The position numbers and the translations under genes are program-made. Positions 4,830 through 35,384 of a stretch of 35,548 bases of DNA are shown piece by piece (positions within the stretch are counted from its first letter, which is position 1; each line of letters opens with the position of its first letter). The stretch lies in NCBI GenBank assembly GCA_030606215.1, contig JAUWGW010000015.1:1-35548 (forward strand). Reading direction: 5' to 3'. The notes beneath the pieces are model-generated. The model searched no databases. It had not been told where the DNA came from and saw only the letters and a program-made list of their open reading frames with translations. This DNA is from a bacterium. GTDB taxonomy: Bacteria > NPL-UPA2 > JAUVJM01.

Positions 4830-5114
4830 ATGGCAAAGAAGATGAAGTTTGAAGATGCGCTTAAAAGGCTGGAAGAACTTTTGACTCTTCTTGAAGAAGG
4901 TGATAAACCTCTGGATGAATCTTTGAAACTGTTTGAAGAGGGAACGAAACTTGCCAGGTTCTGCTCAAAGAGGCTTGAGGAGGCTGAGAGAAAAATAGAA
5001 ATTTTAAAGCGTGGAGAAAATGGCAAACTCAAACCAGAACCATTCCATCTGGAGGAGAGAAAAACCGAGCAGTCCCAGACTAAACGAGATGAAGACGAAC
5101 AGTTTCTCCTGTGA
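4830..5114 (+). CDS. xseB: Exodeoxyribonuclease VII small subunit
   Basis: Small helical partner of XseA; several copies bind each large subunit. The sequence begins with the family pattern FEDALKRLEELLTLLEEGDKPLDESLKLFEEG and continues as a two-helix hairpin. It is 94 residues long, with a longer, charged, low-complexity tail after residue 65 than the compact 70-80 residue members. The ATG at 4830 follows AGGAGAACGG. The stop codon lies inside the first bases of a dispersed palindromic repeat (5112-5145), so the last residues may have been altered when that repeat arrived. Confidence 0.93.
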   Translation: MAKKMKFEDALKRLEELLTLLEEGDKPLDESLKLFEEGTKLARFCSKRLEEAERKIEILKRGENGKLKPEPFHLEERKTEQSQTKRDEDEQFLL

Positions 5115-5145
5115 TTGCTTCGGGATTTCATCCCTCGCAATGACA
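5112..5145 (-). repeat. Dispersed palindromic repeat, TGTCATTGCGAG family
   Basis: Read on the minus strand, this begins TGTCATTGCGAG and ends GCAATCAC. The 12-bp start is identical to the start of a repeat inside the methyltransferase gene at 31074-31110. It folds as a hairpin: ATTGC (5114-5118) pairs with GCAAT (5137-5141), and GGGAT (5122-5126) with ATCCC (5130-5134) around a TTC loop. It lies immediately after xseB and could act as a weak terminator or mRNA-end stabiliser, but there is no T-run. Confidence 0.7.
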
Positions 5146-5158
5146 TAGCAATATGAAT

Positions 5159-5273
5159 GTAAATATTCGGTCAACTGTGTCCGCGCACGTCATTCTGAGG
5201 AGCACAGCGACGAAGAATCCCTATTAGATTCTTCACTTCGTTCAGAATGACACACGGTTCACCGAATATTTAC
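5159..5273. mobile_element. MITE copy 1 (115 bp) with 8-bp target-site duplication
   Basis: The element begins GTAAATATTCGGT and ends with the reverse complement, ACCGAATATTTAC. The terminal inverted repeats extend to about 22 bp (5159-5180 and 5252-5273) with two mismatches. The 8 bp ATATGAAT occurs on both sides (5151-5158 and 5274-5281), a classic target-site duplication. Inside is a second palindrome (5189-5251, GTCATTCTGAG...CAGAATGAC, with GAAGAATC/GATTCTTC) that also occurs alone at 6171-6232. There is no coding capacity, so movement would need a transposase acting in trans. The right-hand duplication contains the start codon of the next gene. Confidence 0.9.
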
Positions 5274-6275: not shown

Positions 6276-7292
6276 TTAGATCTCGATCATGATCTTGAGG
6301 GAGCTACGAACCTCCATGGCAAGCGCCAGGGCTTCTGACAGTTTATTTAGTTTGAAACGATGAGTTATCAATTCTTTCACTTTTATCTTCCCCTTTTCTA
6401 TCAATTCTAAAGCTGCTCTCTGTTCCGAAGGGGTTGAAGAATAGCTTCCAAGAAGAGTAACTTCTGAATGATACACAAGGTTTGGGGCAAGTTTCAAAAC
6501 TGAATTATGCGGGCATTCAGCAAAAAACATTATTTTTCCACCCCTTGAGACAAAATTTAGACTTTGCGCCAGGGCATTTATATTTCCAACTGCAACGATG
6601 ACGATATCTGCTTCATTCACCTCTCTTGCAATCTTCTCAACACTATCCTTGCCGGGGTTTACAGCCATCTCTGCTCCAAGTTTCAGTGCAAAATTCAGAC
6701 GAGAATCTACTAAATCACTTATAACTACACGGGATGCTCCTGAGAGTAAAGCAAGTTGAAGATGCAGTAGTCCTACAGAACCTGCTCCAACTATCATAAC
6801 AGTATCTCCTAACTGTATTTTGCACCTCTTAATTGCGCGCAGACAACAAGCAACTGTTTCAGTGAAAGATGCCTCTTCGTATGATAAGTTATCAGGGATT
6901 TTAAAAGTGGATTTCTCAACACCGGGTGGCAGAACTCTGATATATTCGGCGAATCCACCAGGGATTATATTTGTCTTTTTAAAACTTTCACATTGACTGT
7001 AACTTCCATGCCGGCAGTATCGGCATGTGAAACATGGCAAATGATGGCTGACAACTACTCTTTCTCCTACCTCAAGTCCTTCTACTCCCTCACCTAACTC
7101 TGCTATGTCCCCTGCTACTTCATGACCGAGAACTGCCGGAGTAGCAACTGTCTTTTCCCTCATCTTGCTGACATCTGTGCCGCACAACCCGCATACTTTT
7201 ACCCTGATGAGGATTTCTCTCTCTTTTATACGGGGTTTCTCAACATCTTCATACCTTATATCATCAATGTCATAAAATGAGGCAACTTTCAT
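6276..7292 (-). CDS. Zinc-dependent medium-chain alcohol/polyol dehydrogenase
   Basis: Oxidises an alcohol with NAD(P)+ using a catalytic zinc; the substrate cannot be fixed from sequence. The catalytic zinc ligands are visible as Cys37 (CGLCGTD) and His57-Glu58 (LGHEVAG). The structural zinc lobe has Cys87, 90, 93 and 101 (CFTCRYC...C). The Rossmann fold shows VGAGSVG around 168-174. Length (338) is normal. It resembles the threonine/sorbitol dehydrogenase branch. Last gene of the minus-strand operon; its start overlaps the stop of the zinc-ribbon gene by 4 bp, so the two are probably translated together. Confidence 0.9.
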   Translation of the reverse strand: MKVASFYDIDDIRYEDVEKPRIKEREILIRVKVCGLCGTDVSKMREKTVATPAVLGHEVAGDIAELGEGVEGLEVGERVVVSHHLPCFTCRYCRHGSYSQCESFKKTNIIPGGFAEYIRVLPPGVEKSTFKIPDNLSYEEASFTETVACCLRAIKRCKIQLGDTVMIVGAGSVGLLHLQLALLSGASRVVISDLVDSRLNFALKLGAEMAVNPGKDSVEKIAREVNEADIVIVAVGNINALAQSLNFVSRGGKIMFFAECPHNSVLKLAPNLVYHSEVTLLGSYSSTPSEQRAALELIEKGKIKVKELITHRFKLNKLSEALALAMEVRSSLKIMIEI

Positions 7293-13586: not shown

Positions 13587-13651
13587 TCCCCCCTTCCTTA
13601 ATCCTCTCCCCTGGAGGGAGAGGGTAAGGGTAAGGGTAAGGGTGAGGGGGT
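13587..13651 (+). repeat. Dispersed GAGAGGGTAAGG repeat with GGGTAA tandem expansion
   Basis: A short repeat with inverted arms (CCTCTCCCCTGG/GGAGGGAGAGG) followed by about three tandem GGGTAA units and GTGAGGGGG. A related 38-bp copy lies in frame in the methyltransferase gene (31468-31505), sharing GGGAGAGGGTAAGG and GAGGGGG. It sits in the purE leader, so its hairpin would be transcribed ahead of the ribosome-binding site. Confidence 0.75.
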
Positions 13652-17764: not shown

Positions 17765-18111
17765 CCAATCAATACACCCTGACTATCCCACCATGCAGTC
17801 TACAACAATCTAATTAAGGATAAGGGCAAAATGTATTCAAGCAAAGACAGAAGAGTATGTGATGGGTTGGAGGATATATCTCGTCAATTTCATAGACGGT
17901 AAAAGGTACCCACTTCTTGTGCATTCGGGGACACTTCCAAGAATCACCTTTAGAAGCAAAAGTGTTGACCGAACGGTGGCGGAGGGAATATAATACGTTA
18001 AGGCTTCATACTGCAAGATTTGCAGTGTTTGGCAATTCTATTGGGTTATAATATCTGTTGGAAGGACAAATAGTTCTCGGCACTTCACAATGAGATTCTC
18101 AAATCTGATGA
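17765..18111. other. Intergenic stretch upstream of the SIR2 gene
   Basis: About 350 bp without a complete gene. It contains a short decayed reading frame (GWRIYLVNFIDGKRYPLLVH... from about 17862 to a stop at 17993) whose later part is the left inverted segment. It also has a perfect dyad CTGCAA-GAT-TTGCAG at 18011-18025 and a TATAAT at 18047-18052 without a well-spaced -35. The dyad and hexamer may belong to the SIR2 gene's control region. Confidence 0.5.
17895..17995 (+). repeat. Left inverted homologous segment flanking the SIR2 gene
   Basis: Aligns without gaps to the minus strand of 21250-21350. The last 49 bp (17947-17995) match at 43 positions, with 13 identical bases TTGACCGAACGGT. 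The rest matches mainly at the codon level: both copies encode D-x-K-R...V-H...R...F-R-x-K-x-x-D-R-T-V-A-x-G-I. Probably remnants of one mobile or duplicated coding sequence I do not recognise. Confidence 0.75.
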
Positions 18112-21249: not shown

Positions 21250-21350
21250 TATTGTATTCCCTGCGCTACCGTTCGGTCAATACCTTTGCCTCTAAAGGCC
21301 ATTCTTTGAAACGCCCGAAAATGCACAAAAAATAGACCTCTTTTATCGTC
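21250..21350 (-). repeat. Right inverted homologous segment flanking the SIR2 gene
   Basis: Counterpart of 17895-17995, in opposite orientation and the same 101-bp length. On the minus strand it reads DDKRGLFFVHF...FRGKGIDRTVAQGI and remains open, whereas the left copy stops at the position of the final Gln. It begins 25 bp after the SIR2 stop codon. Confidence 0.75.
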
Positions 21351-21444
21351 TCTAAAATTGCCCCAAATATACCGTTCAGCCCAACATAAACTCTTTTGTG
21401 GTTTATTGCCAAGCAGTGTTAACCATTCTGGCGGCGGTGCGCTG

Positions 21445-25903: not shown

Positions 25904-28900
25904 ATGAAAAATTTTATTACAAACAGCGGAACTGCGCATTTAAAGAAGCGTTTAATGGAATTAATTCAAAAAAGCGACGAGCTAAAATTCCTGGTCGGTT
26001 TCTTCTATTTTTCAGGCATCAGAGAACTTTATGAAGGATTAAAGAAGAACCCTAATACCAAAATTAATGTATTAGTCGGTCTGAGTGTCGATAAGACAAA
26101 TAAGGGCATTCTTGAATTAGCCGAGCCGGATAATCAACTACCTGATGATGAAAGGATTGATAAATTTTTGCAATCCGTAAAAAAATCGATTAATACAGAA
26201 GAATTCGACACTAAAGAATTCTACGAACAAGTTAAGTTTTTCATAAGTTTGATAAAAGAGGATAAATTAAGAATCCGAAAAACCTACAATCCTAACCATG
26301 CTAAAATTTATATTTTTAAGCTTGAAGAAGAACAGGTTGGAAGAAAAAAATTGTTTATTACCGGCAGCAGCAATTTAACTAAGGCCGGTTTAACTACACA
26401 GGAAGAGTTTAACGTCGAAATAAGTGATTACGGAGTTGAAGACGCGGAAAGCTACTTTGATAGTTTGTGGGGTGAAGCAGTAAAAATAACCGAGGATGAT
26501 GCGGTTAAGAAAAAGTTGATTGAGGTAGTTGAAAAAGAAACCTTAATCAAAGATATCACTCCTTTCGAAGCATTTGCCTTCATTCTTAAAACTTATCTCG
26601 ATTCGTTTGAGCAAAAAGAAGTTGGCCAATCGCTAATCAAAACATTGGAAGAAAACGGCTACATTCCATATCAATACCAGTTAGACGCTGTAGGGCAAGC
26701 GTTGGCAATTATTGAAAAAAATAATGGAGTAATTATTGCTGATGTAGTGGGTCTGGGTAAAACGGTTATAGCCTGCGCGATAGCAAAAGAATTAAAAAAA
26801 CGGGGTATCGTTATTTGTCCGCCACATCTTGTCGGCGATAAAAACAAAAACTCCGGATGGAAAAAATATGCTGAAGAGTTTGGTCTTTATGATTGGGAAA
26901 TACGGTCACTTGGGAATCTGGAGAGCTTAACCCATTTCGTAAAAAAAGTTAAAGATATTGATGTTGTAATAGTTGATGAAGCCCACCGCTTTAGAAATCA
27001 GGACACAAAAGATTATGAGTATTTGAAGAATATCTGTCGTGGTAAAATTGTAATTTTGCTAACAGCCACTCCCTTTAATAATAGGCCGGGTGATATTTTA
27101 TCTTTATTAAAGCTATTCATTACACCAAAGAAGTCATCAATTACGCTGGAGCACAATCTTGTAGACAGATTTAAGGCTTTTAAAGGCACTTTTGACCGTC
27201 TTGGGTATATTAACAAATATTGGAACTCTTATAATGAAGCTAAAAGAAAAAAAGCAGAGAGTTATTACGAGAGTCTTTTTGAAGAAAGAAGTATAAAATT
27301 AGAAAAAGTAAAGGAAAGGTCGCATTATTTAGCAAAGCAGATCCGGGATGTGATAGAGCCGGTTACTATTCGCCGCAACCGGTTAGATTTACAAAGCAAT
27401 CCGTTTTATAAAGATCAAGTTGAACACCTATCAAAAGTTACGGATCCAAAGGAATGGTTTTTCGAATTAACAAAAAGGCAGTCAGAATTTTACGATAAAA
27501 TTATTAGCAATTATTTCGGTGACCCGGATGATGGCGGTCAGTTTAAAGGGGCTATTTACCGGCCTTTTGAATACGAGATAGATCGGGGGAAAATTGCTAA
27601 TGACAAATTAACCGAAAAAGAAAATTTTCAGTATATCCAGCAGAGAAACTTGTATGATTTTATGCGGAGATTGGTCGTTAAAAGATTTGAAAGTTCTTTT
27701 GGGTCTTTTGAACAAAGCATAAAAAACTTTAAAACAATTACCGAGTCTGCATTGAAGTTTATTGAAAAAACAAAAAAATATATACTTGACCGCTCTCTTT
27801 TGGAAAAAATATATGATTTGGATTTAGAACAGATTGAAGAATATTTAAAAGATTATTCTGAAAAAATAAGAAACGGAGATTATCCCAAAAACCACAGAAT
27901 TTACGAAGTGAATAAATTAAAATATAAAGATGACTTCATCGCTCACATGAAAGCTGATTTGGTTCTTTTTGATGATATTTTAAAGGAATTATCAGCATTA
28001 GGATTAGTAAATAATGACCCCAAGACAGCTTGCTTATTAAAAAATATCAAAAGCGTTTTGAAACAAAAACCTAACAAAGGCGAACCAAAAAGAAAGATAC
28101 TTATCTTTTCCGAATATCTTGATACGGTGAAATATCTTAATCCAATATTAGAAAAGCACTTTGGCAGGAAATTGTTGGTGGTAGCAGGAGATCTGTCATC
28201 TAAAAAAATCTTTCAGATAAACAAGAATTTTGATGCTTCACATAGTAATCAAGAAGACGAATACGACATTTTACTTACTTCTGACAGGATTTCTGAGGGC
28301 TTTAACCTAAACCGTGCCGGAATGGTGATTAATTATGATATCCCGTGGAATCCTGTGAGAGTTATTCAACGTGTTGGCCGCACAAATCGTATTAGTAAAA
28401 AGGTTTTTGATGAACTTTATATAGTAAATTTCTTTCCTACAGAAAAAGGCGCTGAATTGGTTAAATCGCGGGAAATTGCCGGCAACAAGATGTTTTTAAT
28501 CCACAATACATTGGGCGAGGACGCAAAGATTTTCGATATTGATGAGGAGCCAACCCCGGCAGGCTTATTCAAAAGGATTCAACAAAATCCTGATAAACTG
28601 GAAGAAGAAGGCTTTTACTCTAAAGCTGTAAAACAGTTTTTGGAAATACAAAAAGAAAATCCGGACTTGGTAAATAAGCTAAACAATTTCCCGCCGCGGG
28701 TAAAGGTCGCCAAGCAATTCAGCGATAATGAGCTTTTGATTTTCTTTAAAAAGGGCAGGATATATATTTATGGTTTAAAGTATAATGGCGATAGCAAGGT
28801 TCAACCTTATCAAGCCACTTTTGAAGATATTTTTGACAAAATCGCTTGTGACAAGAATGAAAAGGCAGTTTCTCTAACCAGCTCTTTTTGGAATTCGTAT

Positions 28901-29260
28901 GAACAAATAAAGAAATTCAAAGAATACCGGCATGGCTCCGTCAGCGAGCAAAGTCTTGAACAAAAAGCATTGAACAATCTTAAAAGCTTTATTTCTAAGC
29001 CATGGGAGAAACTCCTGCCGTATTTAGATTTTTTGAAGACACTGCGGGAAGATATCATTGATTACGGCACGCTTCCTGATTATACTCTGCGCAGAATAGC
29101 CAATTTAGAGACTGCGGACGAAAATAAACAAAAGAAAGCAGTCTCGGAAATTATCTCTTTGAAACAAGAGCTTGGGGAAGATTATTTGATAAAAGAAGAA
29201 GAGAGACAAAAAGACCTCGCGAAAGAAGTAATTATTGCCATTGAGAACCAAAAGCTATGA
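25904..29260 (+). CDS. PLD-nuclease/SF2 helicase fusion of a restriction-like defence system
   Basis: A 1118-residue protein. The N-terminal 200 residues form a phospholipase D-type nuclease half-site: NHAKIYIF (His132, Lys134) and FITGSSNLTKAGL (151-163). A SNF2/DEAD-type helicase follows, with DVVGLGKT (Walker A, 280-287), VDEAHRF (357-363), LLTATPFNN (385-393), FSEYLDTVK (about 735), and LLTSDRISEGFNLNRAG with QRVGRTNRI (about 790-830). Such PLD-helicases accompany adenine methyltransferases in restriction-like systems, tracking along and cutting unmodified DNA. It overlaps the methyltransferase start by 4 bp (ATGA), so the two are translated together. The start is typical of the family, though no good Shine-Dalgarno is seen. 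Confidence 0.9.
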   Translation: MKNFITNSGTAHLKKRLMELIQKSDELKFLVGFFYFSGIRELYEGLKKNPNTKINVLVGLSVDKTNKGILELAEPDNQLPDDERIDKFLQSVKKSINTEEFDTKEFYEQVKFFISLIKEDKLRIRKTYNPNHAKIYIFKLEEEQVGRKKLFITGSSNLTKAGLTTQEEFNVEISDYGVEDAESYFDSLWGEAVKITEDDAVKKKLIEVVEKETLIKDITPFEAFAFILKTYLDSFEQKEVGQSLIKTLEENGYIPYQYQLDAVGQALAIIEKNNGVIIADVVGLGKTVIACAIAKELKKRGIVICPPHLVGDKNKNSGWKKYAEEFGLYDWEIRSLGNLESLTHFVKKVKDIDVVIVDEAHRFRNQDTKDYEYLKNICRGKIVILLTATPFNNRPGDILSLLKLFITPKKSSITLEHNLVDRFKAFKGTFDRLGYINKYWNSYNEAKRKKAESYYESLFEERSIKLEKVKERSHYLAKQIRDVIEPVTIRRNRLDLQSNPFYKDQVEHLSKVTDPKEWFFELTKRQSEFYDKIISNYFGDPDDGGQFKGAIYRPFEYEIDRGKIANDKLTEKENFQYIQQRNLYDFMRRLVVKRFESSFGSFEQSIKNFKTITESALKFIEKTKKYILDRSLLEKIYDLDLEQIEEYLKDYSEKIRNGDYPKNHRIYEVNKLKYKDDFIAHMKADLVLFDDILKELSALGLVNNDPKTACLLKNIKSVLKQKPNKGEPKRKILIFSEYLDTVKYLNPILEKHFGRKLLVVAGDLSSKKIFQINKNFDASHSNQEDEYDILLTSDRISEGFNLNRAGMVINYDIPWNPVRVIQRVGRTNRISKKVFDELYIVNFFPTEKGAELVKSREIAGNKMFLIHNTLGEDAKIFDIDEEPTPAGLFKRIQQNPDKLEEEGFYSKAVKQFLEIQKENPDLVNKLNNFPPRVKVAKQFSDNELLIFFKKGRIYIYGLKYNGDSKVQPYQATFEDIFDKIACDKNEKAVSLTSSFWNSYEQIKKFKEYRHGSVSEQSLEQKALNNLKSFISKPWEKLLPYLDFLKTLREDIIDYGTLPDYTLRRIANLETADENKQKKAVSEIISLKQELGEDYLIKEEERQKDLAKEVIIAIENQKL

Positions 29261-32200
29261 GCAGAGAAATATTACAAAACATTATAAATGATTTTGAGAC
29301 GGAAAGGTTTGTTCGGTTTTTTCGTGAAAAAAACCGTTCCTTTGCACCTAAAAGAGAAGACCTGATTCAATATGAAGATAACGACTTTAAAAACGGCTTA
29401 AAACTGGGGGAGATTAAATTTAATAGCGGCGAACAAATGTTCGTTTGCGCTTTCCGAGCCAATCAGCCGCTCTCTGAACGAAGCGGCAAAAAATCCCAGT
29501 ACGAGAAAGCAAAAAAAATTCTCAAAGAAACGCAATCCGATGCCGGAATATTTATCTTTTATGACAGACAAAACAATTTCCGCTTTAGTTTAATTTACGC
29601 CAATTATCTGGGAACACGAAGGGATTGGAGTAACTTCCGCCGTTTTACCTATCTTGTCAGCAAAGAATTTACCAATAAAACATTTTTGCAAAGGATTGGC
29701 GATGGCGATTTCTCATCATTGGAAAAAATTAAAGATGCCTTTAGCGTTGAAAAGGTAACCAAGAGTTTTTATACGGATATTGCCAATTGGTATTTTTGGG
29801 CAGTGCAAAACAGCAAGTTTCCTGAAGATGCAAAAAACGAGGATAACGGACGAAATATTGCCATAATAAGAATGATAACCCGCCTTATTTTTATCTGGTT
29901 TATGCGGGAAAAGGGATTAATTGGGAAAGACTTGTTTGACTGCCAAAATATTTCCGAACTATTAAAAGATTTATCGCCTAAAAAAACCACCTATTACAAA
30001 GCAATTTTACAAAATCTTTTCTTTGCCACTCTCAATACCAGGATAAAAGACAGAAAATTCCGCTTCAAAATTACCGGCTGGAAAAACAGCAATTATATGG
30101 ACCATAGGGTATATCGTTATGAAGACCATTTCAAAAATCAGGAAGATATGCTGAAAATATTCAAAGACATCCCTTTTCTTAACGGTGGCTTGTTTGATTG
30201 TCTGGATAGGAAAATAGAGGAAGCCGGCAGAAATATTGAAATAAGGATTGATGGTTTTTCAGACAAAGAAAAGGGCCTAAATGTGCCCAATTTCCTGTTT
30301 TTCTCCGGTGAAAAAGATGTTGACCTTAATAAAGAATACGGAACGAAGAACAAAAAATACAAAGTCCGCGGACTGATTGACACTTTATTTTCCTATAATT
30401 TCACCATTGACGAAAACGAACCCAATGACCAGGAGGTAGCCCTTGATCCTGAACTCTTAGGCAAAGTGTTCGAAAACCTCCTGGCAAGCTTCAATCCCGA
30501 GACTGCTTCCACTGCGCGTAAAGCCACTGGCAGTTATTACACCCCGCGTGAAATCGTAAATTATATGGTTGAGCAATCACTTAAAGAATATTTTAAGACA
30601 AAATTATCAGACATATCTGAATTGGACAAAAAACTAAATCACCTATTTTCCTATGCTGACGAAACAAATCCATTCAATGAAGAAGAGACCAATATTTTAA
30701 TCCATGCGATAAATACGCTAAAAGTGATAGACCCGGCGGTTGGTTCTGGTGCATTCCCTATGGGTATACTTCAAAAACTTGTATTAGTACTATCCAAACT
30801 TGACCCGCATAATGAAAAATGGAAACAACAACAAATTGATGGAATTGAGAAAAATGTTTTAGACGTTACAAGTAAAAGAGATTCAATCCAAAAAATTGAA
30901 CAGAATTTCAAACAGAATGAACTTGATTATGGCCGTAAACTCTATCTTATTAAAAAGTCAATTTATGGAGTTGATATTCAGCCGATTGCAATACAGATTG
31001 CCAAACTAAGATTTTTTATCTCACTTTTAGTAGATGAAAAAGTGGATAAAAGAATCCTTGATAACCATCATTCTGTCATTGCGAGCGACCGTAGGGAGCG
31101 TGGCAATCTCGTTGGTGAGGATAATTTTGGAATAGAACCGCTACCTAATCTTGAGACAAAACTGGTTTCTGCTAATTCACTAATTGGATTGGAAGAAGAA
31201 AAACAGCTAATTTTCACAGACCCCCGTATTGATACCCTTGAAAAAGAATTAAAGGAAAATAGAGATAAATATTTTGATGCAAGTTATACAAAAGAGAAAG
31301 AAAAATTACGAAAAAAAGACAAGGAAATACGGCAAAAACTTGCGGTGTTATTAAAACAAAACAATTTTTCCACAAAAAATACTGAAAGGATAACCAATTG
31401 GGACCCGTATAATTCCAACATTTCAGCGGACTGGTTTGACTCGGAGTGGATGTTTGGGGTTAAAAATCCTTCGCCCCCTGTGGGAGAGGGTAAGGATGAG
31501 GGGGGATTTGATATTGTGATTGGTAATCCACCGTATGGTTTCCGCGATGTTTTGTCCTCTGAAGAAAAACAATTCTTTCGAAAGACGATGAAGATTGAAT
31601 TTCCAACTGGCAATATTGCTGAATTGTTCATTATCATATCGTTGTCAAAATTTGTCGGGCAAAATGGCATATTAACTTTCATCATTCCCAAAAAATCACT
31701 TTACGGTGAATCTTGGAGCAATGTTCGTAAAATTTGGCTTGAAAACAGTTTGTGTTTTCTGATTGACGCGAGCCAATCATTCGAGAATGTTTTGCTTGAA
31801 CAAAGCGTTTTTTCGGTTCAAAAGCGAAATAGTACTGATGGAAATATTACAGTCGGCGCGTTAGACCCGGATGCTGGCACAGTGCGGGTGTTTGGCGAAT
31901 TTCCACTTGCAAATGTCTTCACGCCCGATTTACGAAACGCACAGATTTACAGAGGACTTTATCCTGTTAGTCTCCTCAAAAAAATTATCGAAAAATCAAT
32001 ACCCGACACTTCATCCGTTATTAAAGCAGAAATTGGTATCTCAAATATAACTGAGCATCTAACTTTCGAGGCAGAGGATAATTGTCCTTGTGTCAAGGGA
32101 ATAGACATTGTTTGTTACGGATTGAAACCGACAATCCGATATTTGAATGGTAAGATTGCCAAACAATATATTGGCGATTACCAAGACGACAAGATTGTGA

Positions 32201-32679
32201 GCCAGGAAATAATTGCCCATATCCAGAATCCTCGTCCGCATATTCTGATAACGATGTTTTATGATAACAAGCGTAGGCTAATCAATGATACCTGTGTCGA
32301 AATAAAAGTACCGGACGGAAAATTGCGTAAGAAGTTTTTGCTTGGCTACTTGCAATCGCAATTTTCCAATTGGTATGCCTATAATTTCGTTTACAACCGT
32401 GCAGTCCGCACAATGCATTTTATCGATTACTATATCACTCAGATACCAATACCGAAGTGCACTCTTGATGAACCCGAACAGCAAACGCCCATCATCAAAC
32501 TTGTAGATAAGATTCTCGCAATCACAAAAGATGACGATTATCTTACTAATTCTACCAAGCAGGCGAAAGTCAAAGAATACCAACACCAAATCGACCAGAT
32601 GGTTTATAAATTATACGGTTTGACCAAAGAAGAAATAAAAATTGTAGAAGGAGAAGATACTTATGATAAAAAGAATTAA
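29257..32679 (+). CDS. Large Eco57I-like N6-adenine DNA methyltransferase with two in-frame repeat insertions
   Basis: An 1140-residue protein of the type IIG/PglX-like group. The AdoMet-binding motif is DPAVGSGAFPMGIL (about 492) and the catalytic motif is IVIGNPPYGF (about 755-764). The C-terminal third resembles a TaqI-like target-recognition region. The N-terminal 200 residues (with KLGEIKFNSGEQMFVCAF) are of unclear fold. Two segments look foreign: residues about 606-618 are encoded by a TGTCATTGCGAG repeat, and residues about 738-750, just before the NPPY motif, by a GAGAGGGTAAGG repeat. Both keep the frame. It marks self DNA for the preceding helicase-nuclease, and overlaps the AAA gene by 17 bp. 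Confidence 0.92.
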   Translation: MSREILQNIINDFETERFVRFFREKNRSFAPKREDLIQYEDNDFKNGLKLGEIKFNSGEQMFVCAFRANQPLSERSGKKSQYEKAKKILKETQSDAGIFIFYDRQNNFRFSLIYANYLGTRRDWSNFRRFTYLVSKEFTNKTFLQRIGDGDFSSLEKIKDAFSVEKVTKSFYTDIANWYFWAVQNSKFPEDAKNEDNGRNIAIIRMITRLIFIWFMREKGLIGKDLFDCQNISELLKDLSPKKTTYYKAILQNLFFATLNTRIKDRKFRFKITGWKNSNYMDHRVYRYEDHFKNQEDMLKIFKDIPFLNGGLFDCLDRKIEEAGRNIEIRIDGFSDKEKGLNVPNFLFFSGEKDVDLNKEYGTKNKKYKVRGLIDTLFSYNFTIDENEPNDQEVALDPELLGKVFENLLASFNPETASTARKATGSYYTPREIVNYMVEQSLKEYFKTKLSDISELDKKLNHLFSYADETNPFNEEETNILIHAINTLKVIDPAVGSGAFPMGILQKLVLVLSKLDPHNEKWKQQQIDGIEKNVLDVTSKRDSIQKIEQNFKQNELDYGRKLYLIKKSIYGVDIQPIAIQIAKLRFFISLLVDEKVDKRILDNHHSVIASDRRERGNLVGEDNFGIEPLPNLETKLVSANSLIGLEEEKQLIFTDPRIDTLEKELKENRDKYFDASYTKEKEKLRKKDKEIRQKLAVLLKQNNFSTKNTERITNWDPYNSNISADWFDSEWMFGVKNPSPPVGEGKDEGGFDIVIGNPPYGFRDVLSSEEKQFFRKTMKIEFPTGNIAELFIIISLSKFVGQNGILTFIIPKKSLYGESWSNVRKIWLENSLCFLIDASQSFENVLLEQSVFSVQKRNSTDGNITVGALDPDAGTVRVFGEFPLANVFTPDLRNAQIYRGLYPVSLLKKIIEKSIPDTSSVIKAEIGISNITEHLTFEAEDNCPCVKGIDIVCYGLKPTIRYLNGKIAKQYIGDYQDDKIVSQEIIAHIQNPRPHILITMFYDNKRRLINDTCVEIKVPDGKLRKKFLLGYLQSQFSNWYAYNFVYNRAVRTMHFIDYYITQIPIPKCTLDEPEQQTPIIKLVDKILAITKDDDYLTNSTKQAKVKEYQHQIDQMVYKLYGLTKEEIKIVEGEDTYDKKN
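31074..31110 (+). repeat. TGTCATTGCGAG-family repeat inside the methyltransferase gene
   Basis: Begins TGTCATTGCGAG and ends GCAATCTC; the 12-bp start is identical to the repeat after xseB (5134-5145, minus strand). In this frame it encodes VIASDRRERGNL, between SLLVDEKVDKRI and NFGIEPLPNLE, a place where a short surface loop is expected. Confidence 0.8.
31468..31505 (+). repeat. GAGAGGGTAAGG-family repeat inside the methyltransferase gene
   Basis: 38 bp resembling the repeat in the purE leader (13587-13651), sharing GGGAGAGGGTAAGG and GAGGGGG. It encodes PSPPVGEGKDEGG between DSEWMFGVKN and FDIVIGNPPYG, so it adds a Pro/Gly-rich loop just before the catalytic motif. Confidence 0.8.
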
Positions 32680-35071
32680 AAAAATTAAAGGGATTGGAAG
32701 ATTTTTGAATGTCGGGCATACCGAGCTTGGCCAGTTGACCTTAATTTATGGCCCTAACTGTTACGGAAAATCAACCCTCTCCGACATTTTTCGTTCCATA
32801 GCGAATCAAAATCCAGAAGTTTTATCAAATAGGCAATCAATAGTAAGAGACGGCAATCCCATTACCCAAGAGGCGTGTTTTAGCATTGAAAATGGCACAG
32901 ATGTGACGGAACAAGATATTTTTTGCCTTAACCAAAGATGGAATACGGGAAACTTTAATTGCTCAATAGAAGTTTTTGACTCTCGCTTTATCGAGGACAA
33001 TGTTTTTACAGGATTAACAATATCAAGATCTAATAAAGAAAATCTGACAAATTTACTAATAGGTGAGAAAAGTGTCGAGATTGGCAAACAAATAGATTCT
33101 TTAAAAAATAAATCGTTCCGCGAAACGACAAAAGCTATCAGCGAACTTGAGGATTTACTCAAAAGAAGTTTGGGAACTTTAGATTTAGGAATAAGCCTTG
33201 AAGACTTTATATCGGTCGAGAAACCGGATAATATTGAAGCAACTAAATCTGAATTAACTACGCTTCAAGAGAATCTGAAGAAATTTAGAAAATCCATTTC
33301 GGAAAAGAATAAAATTATCGAACTCGATGAGCCAACAATACTTTCTCTTGAAAATCCTGAACCGGCAATTAAAATTCTAAAAGATTCGCTGGGAAAAGGC
33401 TTTGAAAATATAAATGATACTGCATATAAGCGGATGCGAGAACATATAGAACAACACTTTAATTCCCACGATGGCGAAGAAGAAGAATGGATTGAAAAAG
33501 GAGTAAATGCCTATCTTAAACAAAATAAAGATGTAACTACCTTAAATTGCCCGTTTTGTAGTCAATCTTTGGTTACAGTTATTGATCTTATTGAAACATA
33601 CAAAACAGTATTTAGCGAGGCATATGAAAGCTTTTGTAACAAAACTATTAGAACACTGGACGATAAACATCAAGAATTTAATAACCTTATTAGCATCATT
33701 AAATTAGCAGAAAATTCGGTAAATAAAAATTTGGCAAGTTGCCGCCGCTGGCAGGGTTACTTTACAGACGAGACTCAAAAACTCATCGAACAAATAGATA
33801 GTTTCAGCAACAAAGTGAACGAGTCCAATAGCAATCTTGTAGAACTAATGGAAAAAGTTGCTGGTAAGATTGAAGAACTTATCACTGAAAAAAAGAAGAA
33901 ATCTTTTGTTTCTATCAAGGAATTCCCCACCAGCGATAATTTACTAATTGCTTATCAGCAGTTTGAAAAAATAATAAATCAATACAATGAATTTGTAAAA
34001 TTACTTCTTGTAGAAATAAACACCATTAAAACGAGGAGTCAGAATGATCAATTAATAAAGGAATCAGAAAAGTTGAGCAATAAAATAATAGACTTGAATA
34101 TAAAAGTAAAAAGATACGAATTAGCAACCGACATAGATAATGCACAACTTTTAAGAGGAAAAAAGGATATAATAGAACAGGAAATTAAAAAATTACAGGA
34201 AGAACTAGAGCGAGAAAATAAAGAATTCATTGAGCAATACTTCCAGGACACAACGCACATTTTAAATAGATTAGGCTCTATTGATTTTGAAATTCAAACA
34301 ACCTATCGGCGTTGGGGAGGCCAGCCAGTATATGAACCGACAATCAAATTTGCAAATGAGGAAATTACTTTTGATCGGTTGCCATTTATATTTAGTGATG
34401 CAGACAGGAGGGCTTTGGCATTTTCAATTTTTATTTCAAAACTCAAAAAGAAAAGTAAGGCTGAATTAAAAAACACCATCGTTTTTTTAGACGACCCGAT
34501 AACCAGCTTTGACGATAATAGAATTTCACAGACCTTTATAGAGATTAAGAATCTTACAACGTCTTGCTGCCAATTGATTATAGCTGCACACCACAGCAGA
34601 TTTTTACTTGACACTTACGAGAAACTGAAAAGTCTTCCGGATTTAAAATTTATTGAAATCAAAAGAGATGGTTTTGGTGCTGTCTTTGGGTTGGTTAGTG
34701 ACCCTAAAACTAGATTAGATCCACATGCTCAAGAAATAGAGAAGGTGGAAAGATTTATTAACGGCGATCCTGATGTGAACGCGTCGGATGTGCGCAGATC
34801 GTTAAGACCAATACTACAAAAAGAGTTAGAATGGAGGTTCAGAAAAAATTTAAAAGGAGTATCTATTGAGGGGCTTGGCGCTATTGTTACCAGACTGAAA
34901 GAAGAAAATTCAATAAATGATGAGATGGCAAGAAAGATTTATGACTTTAATGACGTACTTAAAGACGACCATCATGAAACAACTTTAGATATGGACGAAG
35001 ATACAAGGAATTTGTCTAAAAATATCATTGAATTTATCTTTGAAGAACTAAATCCAGTGGTAAATCTCTGA
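32663..35071 (+). CDS. RloC/PrrC-like AAA (SMC-type) ATPase
   Basis: An 802-residue ABC/SMC-like ATPase of the AAA_13 type. Walker A is GPNCYGKST (30-38). Long coiled coils flank a Cys-x2-Cys (CPFC, 296-299), like the zinc-hook region of RloC. The signature-like FSDADRRALAFSIF lies near 578-590, Walker B is VFLDDPITSFDD (607-618) and the switch His is in AAHHSRF (about 642). Such proteins accompany restriction systems and may sense DNA damage or their failure; PrrC and RloC carry a C-terminal anticodon nuclease. Here the C-terminus has RRSLRPILQKELEWRFR and DDHHET, but I cannot confirm a nuclease triad. A good GAAGGAG precedes the ATG. It lies between two homologous methyltransferase 3' ends. 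Confidence 0.85.
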   Translation: MIKRIKKIKGIGRFLNVGHTELGQLTLIYGPNCYGKSTLSDIFRSIANQNPEVLSNRQSIVRDGNPITQEACFSIENGTDVTEQDIFCLNQRWNTGNFNCSIEVFDSRFIEDNVFTGLTISRSNKENLTNLLIGEKSVEIGKQIDSLKNKSFRETTKAISELEDLLKRSLGTLDLGISLEDFISVEKPDNIEATKSELTTLQENLKKFRKSISEKNKIIELDEPTILSLENPEPAIKILKDSLGKGFENINDTAYKRMREHIEQHFNSHDGEEEEWIEKGVNAYLKQNKDVTTLNCPFCSQSLVTVIDLIETYKTVFSEAYESFCNKTIRTLDDKHQEFNNLISIIKLAENSVNKNLASCRRWQGYFTDETQKLIEQIDSFSNKVNESNSNLVELMEKVAGKIEELITEKKKKSFVSIKEFPTSDNLLIAYQQFEKIINQYNEFVKLLLVEINTIKTRSQNDQLIKESEKLSNKIIDLNIKVKRYELATDIDNAQLLRGKKDIIEQEIKKLQEELERENKEFIEQYFQDTTHILNRLGSIDFEIQTTYRRWGGQPVYEPTIKFANEEITFDRLPFIFSDADRRALAFSIFISKLKKKSKAELKNTIVFLDDPITSFDDNRISQTFIEIKNLTTSCCQLIIAAHHSRFLLDTYEKLKSLPDLKFIEIKRDGFGAVFGLVSDPKTRLDPHAQEIEKVERFINGDPDVNASDVRRSLRPILQKELEWRFRKNLKGVSIEGLGAIVTRLKEENSINDEMARKIYDFNDVLKDDHHETTLDMDEDTRNLSKNIIEFIFEELNPVVNL

Positions 35072-35144
35072 TTTTGATCTTTAAGATGACGCTACCTGAT
35101 AATTGTGACAGTATCGGAGTATGAGCCATAATACGAAATAGTCA

Positions 35145-35384
35145 AAAATAAAAGAATACCAACACCAGATTGCATAGATGGTTTGCAAATTAGCAAATAT
35201 TCGGTGAACCGTGTCATCCCTTCGCTCGGCTCAGGACGGCGTCTGAGCGTAGCGAAGAATCTACGGAGATTCTTCGTCGCTTCGCTCCTCTGAATGACAG
35301 AAAGGAGTACAGTCGACCGAATATTTACGCAAATTATATGGTTTAACGAATAAGGAAATAGGAGTTGTTGAGAATTTTATATGA
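35145..35384 (+). pseudogene. 3' relic of a second methyltransferase gene, split by a MITE
   Basis: With the MITE and one target copy removed, the sequence reads KIKEYQHQIA-stop-MVCKLYGLTNKEIGVVENFI. It parallels KVKEYQHQIDQMVYKLYGLTKEEIKIVEG at the end of the intact methyltransferase (about three quarters identical in DNA over 81 bp). A stop codon has replaced Gln. The relic's terminal TGA overlaps the next gene's ATG by 4 bp, the same coupling seen between helicase and methyltransferase. Confidence 0.85.
35193..35328. mobile_element. MITE copy 2 (136 bp) with 8-bp target-site duplication
   Basis: The left end GCAAATATTCGGT and the right end ACCGAATATTTAC form terminal inverted repeats. The left 22 bp match 21 of 22 bases of the right end of copy 1. 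GCAAATTA occurs directly on both sides (35185-35192 and 35329-35336). Removing the element and one duplicate restores the methyltransferase relic's frame (VCKLYGL). The interior carries the GAAGAATC/GATTCTTC palindrome shared with the other copies. Confidence 0.92.

Follow-up and report, generated by a model that had tools for sequence, protein, structure and literature searches.

Two short segments within a DNA methyltransferase gene of an NPL-UPA2 bacterium are, in all likelihood, miniature palindromes of the REP/RPE kind, each of which entered a surface loop of the enzyme by an insertion of its own. The gene, at positions 29257–32679 (+) of the window (the whole stretch of DNA analysed, contig JAUWGW010000015.1 of assembly GCA_030606215.1, 35,548 nucleotides), encodes a Type IIG-like N6-adenine DNA methyltransferase of 1140 aa that hosts both inserts. 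This reading is carried by the position and frame of the inserts, their absence from homologues, the dispersal of both palindrome families elsewhere and the predicted disorder of the encoded segments. In-frame and double insertions of REPs had precedents (RPEs; Di Nocera 2013). The new findings are how broadly the phenomenon extends across phyla, that the loop preceding motif IV has been used time and again, and that Y1 domains lie embedded in methyltransferases. Neither the motif-IV site, nor the second palindrome (R2) as a coding palindrome, nor the embedded Y1 domains were found in the literature searched.

Two extra segments in a Type IIG-like methyltransferase

The protein matches Pfam Eco57I (2.1e-24) and TaqI_C (1.2e-8), as well as PADLOC REase_MTase_IIG (7e-50), and is of the Type IIG / Eco57I-TaqI kind. 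Its catalytic motifs are intact, with motif I, DPAVGSGAF, at residues 492–500 and motif IV, NPPY, at residues 757–760; the motif IV strand and catalytic loop, GFDIVIGNPPY (31504–31536, +), are (nearly) invariant in 47 homologues, and the strand is modelled at residues 751–756. The closest homologue overall is about 57% identical, no match at E ≤ 1e-60 was found in eight other genomes of the phylum, and viral contigs held no relative of the methyltransferase and no exact R1, the first palindrome; the three motif-IV pattern matches among them are all uninserted. The gene is flanked by a PLD/HKD-SNF2 helicase gene (25904–29260, +), a gene order also found on a Parabacteroides plasmid, and by an AAA_13 ATPase gene (32663–35071, +; PADLOC PDC-S06), the third gene of a putative defence locus. 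Downstream of the ATPase gene, 35132–35192 and 35329–35360 are what is left of the 3′-end of this methyltransferase gene in a second copy (77% to 32553–32613), interrupted by a MITE at 35193–35328, which suggests duplication or exchange inside the defence locus. Elsewhere in the window, 17885–17995 and 21250–21360 form a 111-nt inverted repeat, 77% complementary, with its arms 3.25 kb apart.

Insert 1 (31054–31116, +) comprises 21 extra codons (63 nt; residues 600–620, ILDNHHSVIASDRRERGNLVG) in the loop from VDEKVDK to ENFGIEPLP. It surrounds the palindrome R1 (TCATTGCGAG..GCAATC) and is wider than the R1 core, TGTCATTGCGAGCGACCGTAGGGAGCGTGGCAATCTC, at 31074–31110 (+). The stretch spanning this site has 29 residues in the window and eight in 66 of 77 measurable sequences (window included), with 2–11 in the rest, and insert 1 is confined to a single protein among the homologues compared. 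Insert 2 (31465–31503, +; 39 nt; residues 737–749, NPSPPVGEGKDEG) consists of the palindrome R2, GGGAGAGGG, adds 12 net residues, and stands directly before GFDIVIGNPPY, adjoining the GGATTT that forms the GF codons of that sequence. From WMF to FDIVIGNPPY there are 17 residues in the window and five in 40 of the 52 sequences of the 'WMFG' subgroup. A preliminary description of this DNA had placed two repeats at 31074–31110 and 31468–31505, in frame, and had proposed that they add residues to the protein; both are there, the 1140-codon frame is unbroken, and the extra residues are borne out by the alignments of 77 (R1 site) and 52 (motif-IV site) sequences. The same description put the second insert immediately before NPPY, which is right as to its closeness to motif IV; however, the strand GFDIVIG, which leads to NPPY, stands between, and the insert does not touch NPPY itself.

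The inserts also differ from their surroundings in composition (GC 0.61–0.67, versus 0.31–0.34 beside them). In an AlphaFold model built with 47 sequences (mean pLDDT 83, pTM 0.84), residues 600–619 of insert 1 are modelled as coil with pLDDT below 50, and insert 2 as coil with pLDDT of about 59, ahead of the strand 751–756. Both are low-confidence predicted loops, in agreement with the earlier view that the added segments are short loops.

Dispersal of R1 and R2

The exact R1 word TGTCATTGCGAG occurs in the window at 5134 (−) and 31074 (+), and the bare 12-mer has six matches with up to two mismatches where 2.5 are expected, which is marginally above chance. The whole palindrome (TCATTGCGAG-N5-35-GCAATC) has seven copies in the 1.52-Mb genome, versus none for the reversed control. 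Exact-match and genome-wide searches alike returned a copy outside long ORFs (5113–5145, −). Another copy lies in frame in the gene for valyl-tRNA synthetase (ValRS; L092, C11:35559–35590), where it falls between the catalytic and anticodon-binding domains; this second host is an essential gene. The variant inside the methyltransferase, GCGACCGTAGGGAGCGTGG, is unlike the six other copies of its own genome, and a zero-mismatch copy of its 33-bp core (TCATTGCGAG..GGCAATC) is found in a genome of another phylum, that of the Elusimicrobia genome G012; this is the genome from which the Elusimicrobia methyltransferase locus L072 (see below) comes. A near variant of the core has many copies, mostly outside genes, in one genome of the same phylum, in which a short frame (L282) encodes the same peptide, NVIASDRRERGNLVG. 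On plasmids, R1 matches were short only.

A short MITE-like element is present at 5159–5273 and 35193–35328. It is bounded by terminal inverted repeats GTAAATATTCGGTGAACCGTGT, contains a TCATTCTGAG/GAATGACA palindrome and is accompanied by apparent target duplications of 8 bp (ATATGAAT; GCAAATTA); its end is found in nine exact copies across the genome. R1-like palindromes ride inside this element.

The R2 word GAGAGGGTAAGG is exact at 13618 and 31484, and the only other exact R2 copy in the genome (13605–13641, +) is not in a long ORF. Seven matches with up to two mismatches lie in the window, versus 1.7 expected (none of 100 shuffles reached this), in part as a short tandem at 13618–13641. 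Genome-wide, the exact copies are only two and looser matches are about as frequent as the control; R2 is thus not a dispersed family there. The proposal that both repeats are dispersed therefore holds for R1, but for R2 not in its own genome; relatives of both in non-coding DNA, also proposed, are present (5113–5145 and 13605–13641). R2 is dispersed in other genomes, with about 10 copies in a Desulfuromonadales genome (G010), eight in a Nitrospirae genome (G011), about 10 in G012, about 20 in Pseudanabaena (G014) and five in a Bacteroidetes genome (G016; controls 0–4 throughout). In a Nitrospiraceae genome (G009) the sole copy is the one inside a methyltransferase, and R2-like palindromes are present in Azospirillum plasmids.

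Well over half of the R2 copies in 40 neighbourhoods of four genomes lie in long frames, and all 20 R2-bearing long ORFs that were scanned have a Pfam match. The hosts include DNA polymerase I (PolA), UvrC, CarA, HypF, MiaA, a glycine dehydrogenase subunit, a histidine kinase, an N4/N6 methyltransferase-DUF559 protein and others; two copies each are found in anthranilate synthase (TrpE), in HsdM and in an MmeI-type methyltransferase (L171 and L172, which overlap and are one gene). No report of R2-encoded peptides was found in the literature searched, and coding R2 extends the intragenic-REP picture of Di Nocera and colleagues to a family and to phyla for which we found no report.

The loop before motif IV in other methyltransferases

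Insertions exactly at the second site of the window occur in a Desulfuromonadales methyltransferase (L057, PSPSGIYTRSGRGQGEG) and in L072 (PSSSPFEKGGQG). Among 396 genomes of the phylum of G011, the pattern GGGGG-TTYGAY..NPPY was found in 15 genes, nine with a palindrome immediately upstream (L240, L241, L245, L247, L248, L250, L251, L253 and L254), although, GGGGG being required by the search, this count gives no strength for a site preference. Most of the nine are in frame, the exceptions being L250, with its palindrome out of frame, and L245, with a stop upstream. The three matches to the pattern from the phylum of G010 carried no insert. When similar hosts are counted once, and the extra residues of L022, not clearly a repeat, are left out, inserts at this site are found in at least eight host groups: the window, L057, L072, L240, L241, L254, L247/L253 and L248/L251. 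The insert of L254, KNPSLLAGESKGEGG, almost equals insert 2 in a protein just 31% identical. While no conserved residues stand in the homologues at the site of insert 1, similar repeat-encoded residues do occur at the site of insert 2 in a few distant homologues; these are isolated cases in hosts about 31–46% identical, which is more in keeping with repeated insertion than with shared ancestry.

Further loops of these enzymes also carry inserts, in particular that from 'MVDESLIAYL' to 'LRHL.AYNDEP' (L046, L057, L065, L030 and L021). At least four segments of L057 (5368–9192) derive from repeats, among them a GTAGGGGC..GCCCCTAC palindrome. In L065 (about 6889–7060) several palindromic repeats of different kinds stand in tandem within a single methyltransferase frame (LPPAGEGEGEG..CHSRTLSCHSREGGNP..), and a GTCATTCCCGCGAA repeat is one of them. 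After clustering and removal of matches that were host coding sequence, the density of palindromes found by motif was, in methyltransferase ORFs, 2-fold that of other ORFs of the same loci (p = 0.12), and therefore we claim no preference for methyltransferases. The density of hairpins found de novo did not differ between methyltransferase and other ORFs, because the palindromes are imperfect.

Y1/HUH domains embedded in methyltransferases

In L018 and L023 the motif-IV site holds about 190–225 residues with a Y1_Tnp domain (Pfam 1e-8). In a search of 396 Bacteroidota genomes (the phylum of G016) for this embedded domain, five matched, all within frames of 767–1273 aa; these are other methyltransferases, and in 5/5 the Y1 domain stops just before GGFDVV(V/I)GNPPY. 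In Cyanobacteriota, two strong matches (L227 and L256) lie at another position within Type ISP-like methyltransferases of 1270–1278 aa, the weaker matches being stand-alone RAYT-like frames. All nine strong matches are inside methyltransferases (L018, L023 and L228–L232 before motif IV; L227 and L256). At about 30% identity the HUH histidines are invariant, and so is a tyrosine aligned to a position close to the end of the solved TnpA (entry 2xm3). L227 and L230 share 39% identity in their Y1 domains, in host proteins without comparable similarity. In L227 (1571–5404) and L256, palindromes AAGGGGCTTAAGCCCCTT stand on both sides of the domain inside the ORF, and of the five in L227 one is a variant. 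No embedded Y1 domain was found on plasmids, and AlphaFold gave no confident model of the embedded region (pLDDT 37). Long TnpAY1 proteins had previously been put aside as fusions or annotation errors (Quentin 2018; PMC6006769). Tentatively, and with rather less than even confidence, we propose that the loop before motif IV of N6-adenine methyltransferases may repeatedly take up, in frame, mobile elements of the single-strand-DNA type, namely short palindromes and a distinct Y1/HUH subfamily found only inside methyltransferases, the two cyanobacterial cases with flanking palindromes being at another site of the enzyme.

Relation to RPEs, REPs and MITEs

RPEs are palindromic dispersed repeats found in frame in protein genes, in several families and sometimes two per gene (PMC3733652, PMC10969869), with a length of about 150 bp (PMC10969869) and a conserved encoded peptide. 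The inserts resemble RPE-1 and others in that a palindrome lies in a conserved protein gene with the frame kept, but the elements of the window measure about 37–39 bp (inserts of 63 and 39 nt); and whereas R1 is dispersed in its host genome, R2 is nearly absent from it. The likeness to Rickettsia palindromic elements drawn in the preliminary description is thus right as to their working, since both segments are extra, both are modelled as loops and the two families are unrelated, but it does not extend to membership. The GTAG/CGTC-tagged REPs are palindromes of 20–40 bp, some of them intragenic and many in DNA repair genes, with double insertions in uvrA/uvrB and with RPE-4 and RPE-6 as counterparts of the intragenic repeats (Di Nocera 2013; PMC3733652); the words methyltransferase, methylase and restriction are absent from the main text of that paper. 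Double insertions within ORFs and DNA-repair hosts are also seen with the repeats of the window or with R2. That two unrelated families share one gene stands, but a double insertion as such has precedent, in uvrA/uvrB and in the HsdM and MmeI-type genes above. The CGTC tag of such REPs is unpaired and stands at one end of the palindrome; R1 in the methyltransferase begins TGTC, one of the seven own copies (that of ValRS, GCGTCATTGCGAG) reads CGTC, and R2 has no such tag.

No Y1_Tnp was found in the genome of the window, nor a GTAG tag or a RAYT gene flanked by the repeat. R2 was considered as a RAYT-flanking repeat and rejected, with one case, at 313 bp, among the stand-alone Y1 genes readable in R2-rich genomes. 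The palindrome-flanked Y1 domains of L227 and L256 resemble REPtrons, in which RAYT genes are flanked by REPs, but are in frame inside a methyltransferase and not separate genes. By eye, neither terminal inverted repeats nor a target-site duplication was recognised at either insert, and no close strain with an empty allele of the gene was found; the insertion is thus inferred from distant homologues.

Origin of the inserts

Independent insertion into tolerant loops accounts for these observations as follows. Palindromes, presumably moved in trans by a transposase of the single-strand-DNA (Y1/HUH) class or of another, would insert widely, and would survive only where they fall, in frame and free of stops, in a loop that tolerates them in a useful gene. 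R1 would have entered the VDEKVDK/ENFGIEPLP loop and R2 the loop before the motif-IV strand, where other palindromes have landed repeatedly; both would owe their survival to a length divisible by three, to the lack of stops in the frame used and to the tolerance of the loops. The out-of-frame L250 and the interrupted L245 suggest that what is seen in frame is what has passed a filter of survival. R2 probably joined the gene in an earlier host, as perhaps did the exact R1 variant, and horizontal transfer would have followed, since R2 is alien to the genome and the gene has no strong match in the eight genomes of the phylum. The methyltransferase is probably still active and the inserts largely neutral, floppy loops.

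That both inserts are resident repeats which transposed inside the genome that now carries them, just as RPEs do in Rickettsia, seems unlikely: R1 is indeed resident (seven copies) and has ValRS as a second in-frame host, but outside this gene R2 is all but missing from the genome, which lacks a Y1 transposase, and the R1 variant of the methyltransferase differs from the six other copies and has its exact match in another phylum. It is a possibility of some weight, if a doubtful one, that a sequence preference makes the motif-IV loop a hot spot of insertion: microhomology would join the G-run ends of palindromes to the GGNTTTGA in the GFD codons, or the site would be recognised by a Y1 transposase. 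Inserts in several phyla do end in G runs at one and the same codon, and the 9/15 genes of the phylum of G011 point the same way; however, GGGGG was built into that search, the phylum of G010 gave inserts in 0/3 matches, these enzymes carry inserts at other loops as well, and the clustering could come from structural tolerance alone.

We consider it quite improbable that the repeat-encoded loops are functional and alter target recognition or regulation of the methyltransferase. Insert 2 adjoins the catalytic strand in the model, and other methyltransferases have kept, at the same place, a Y1 domain whose HUH and Tyr residues are conserved, but from host to host the inserts vary in length and sequence, disorder is predicted for them, and insert 1 is found in a single protein. 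There is very little likelihood that the gene is decaying and the inserts are part of its degeneration; the relic of a second 3′-end at 35132–35192 would suit such a course, but the full-length frame, the intact catalytic motifs, the in-frame state of both inserts and the confident fold would not.

On the preferred reading, that of independent insertion into tolerant loops, mobile palindromes give rise to protein segments in many phyla and not in Rickettsia alone, at the same structural place and in one enzyme class, and the recurrence at one site amounts to a replicated natural experiment on how inserted junk turns into a protein loop. The identical 33-bp R1 core across phyla, together with genes bearing a repeat nearly missing from the rest of their genome, suggests that defence genes, as they move horizontally, can take repeats from one lineage to another. 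If the proposal for the motif-IV loop is true, the proteins with embedded Y1 domains would be methyltransferase-HUH fusions and, as such, domesticated nucleases or else transposons residing in frame, and may represent an undescribed class of restriction or mobile proteins.
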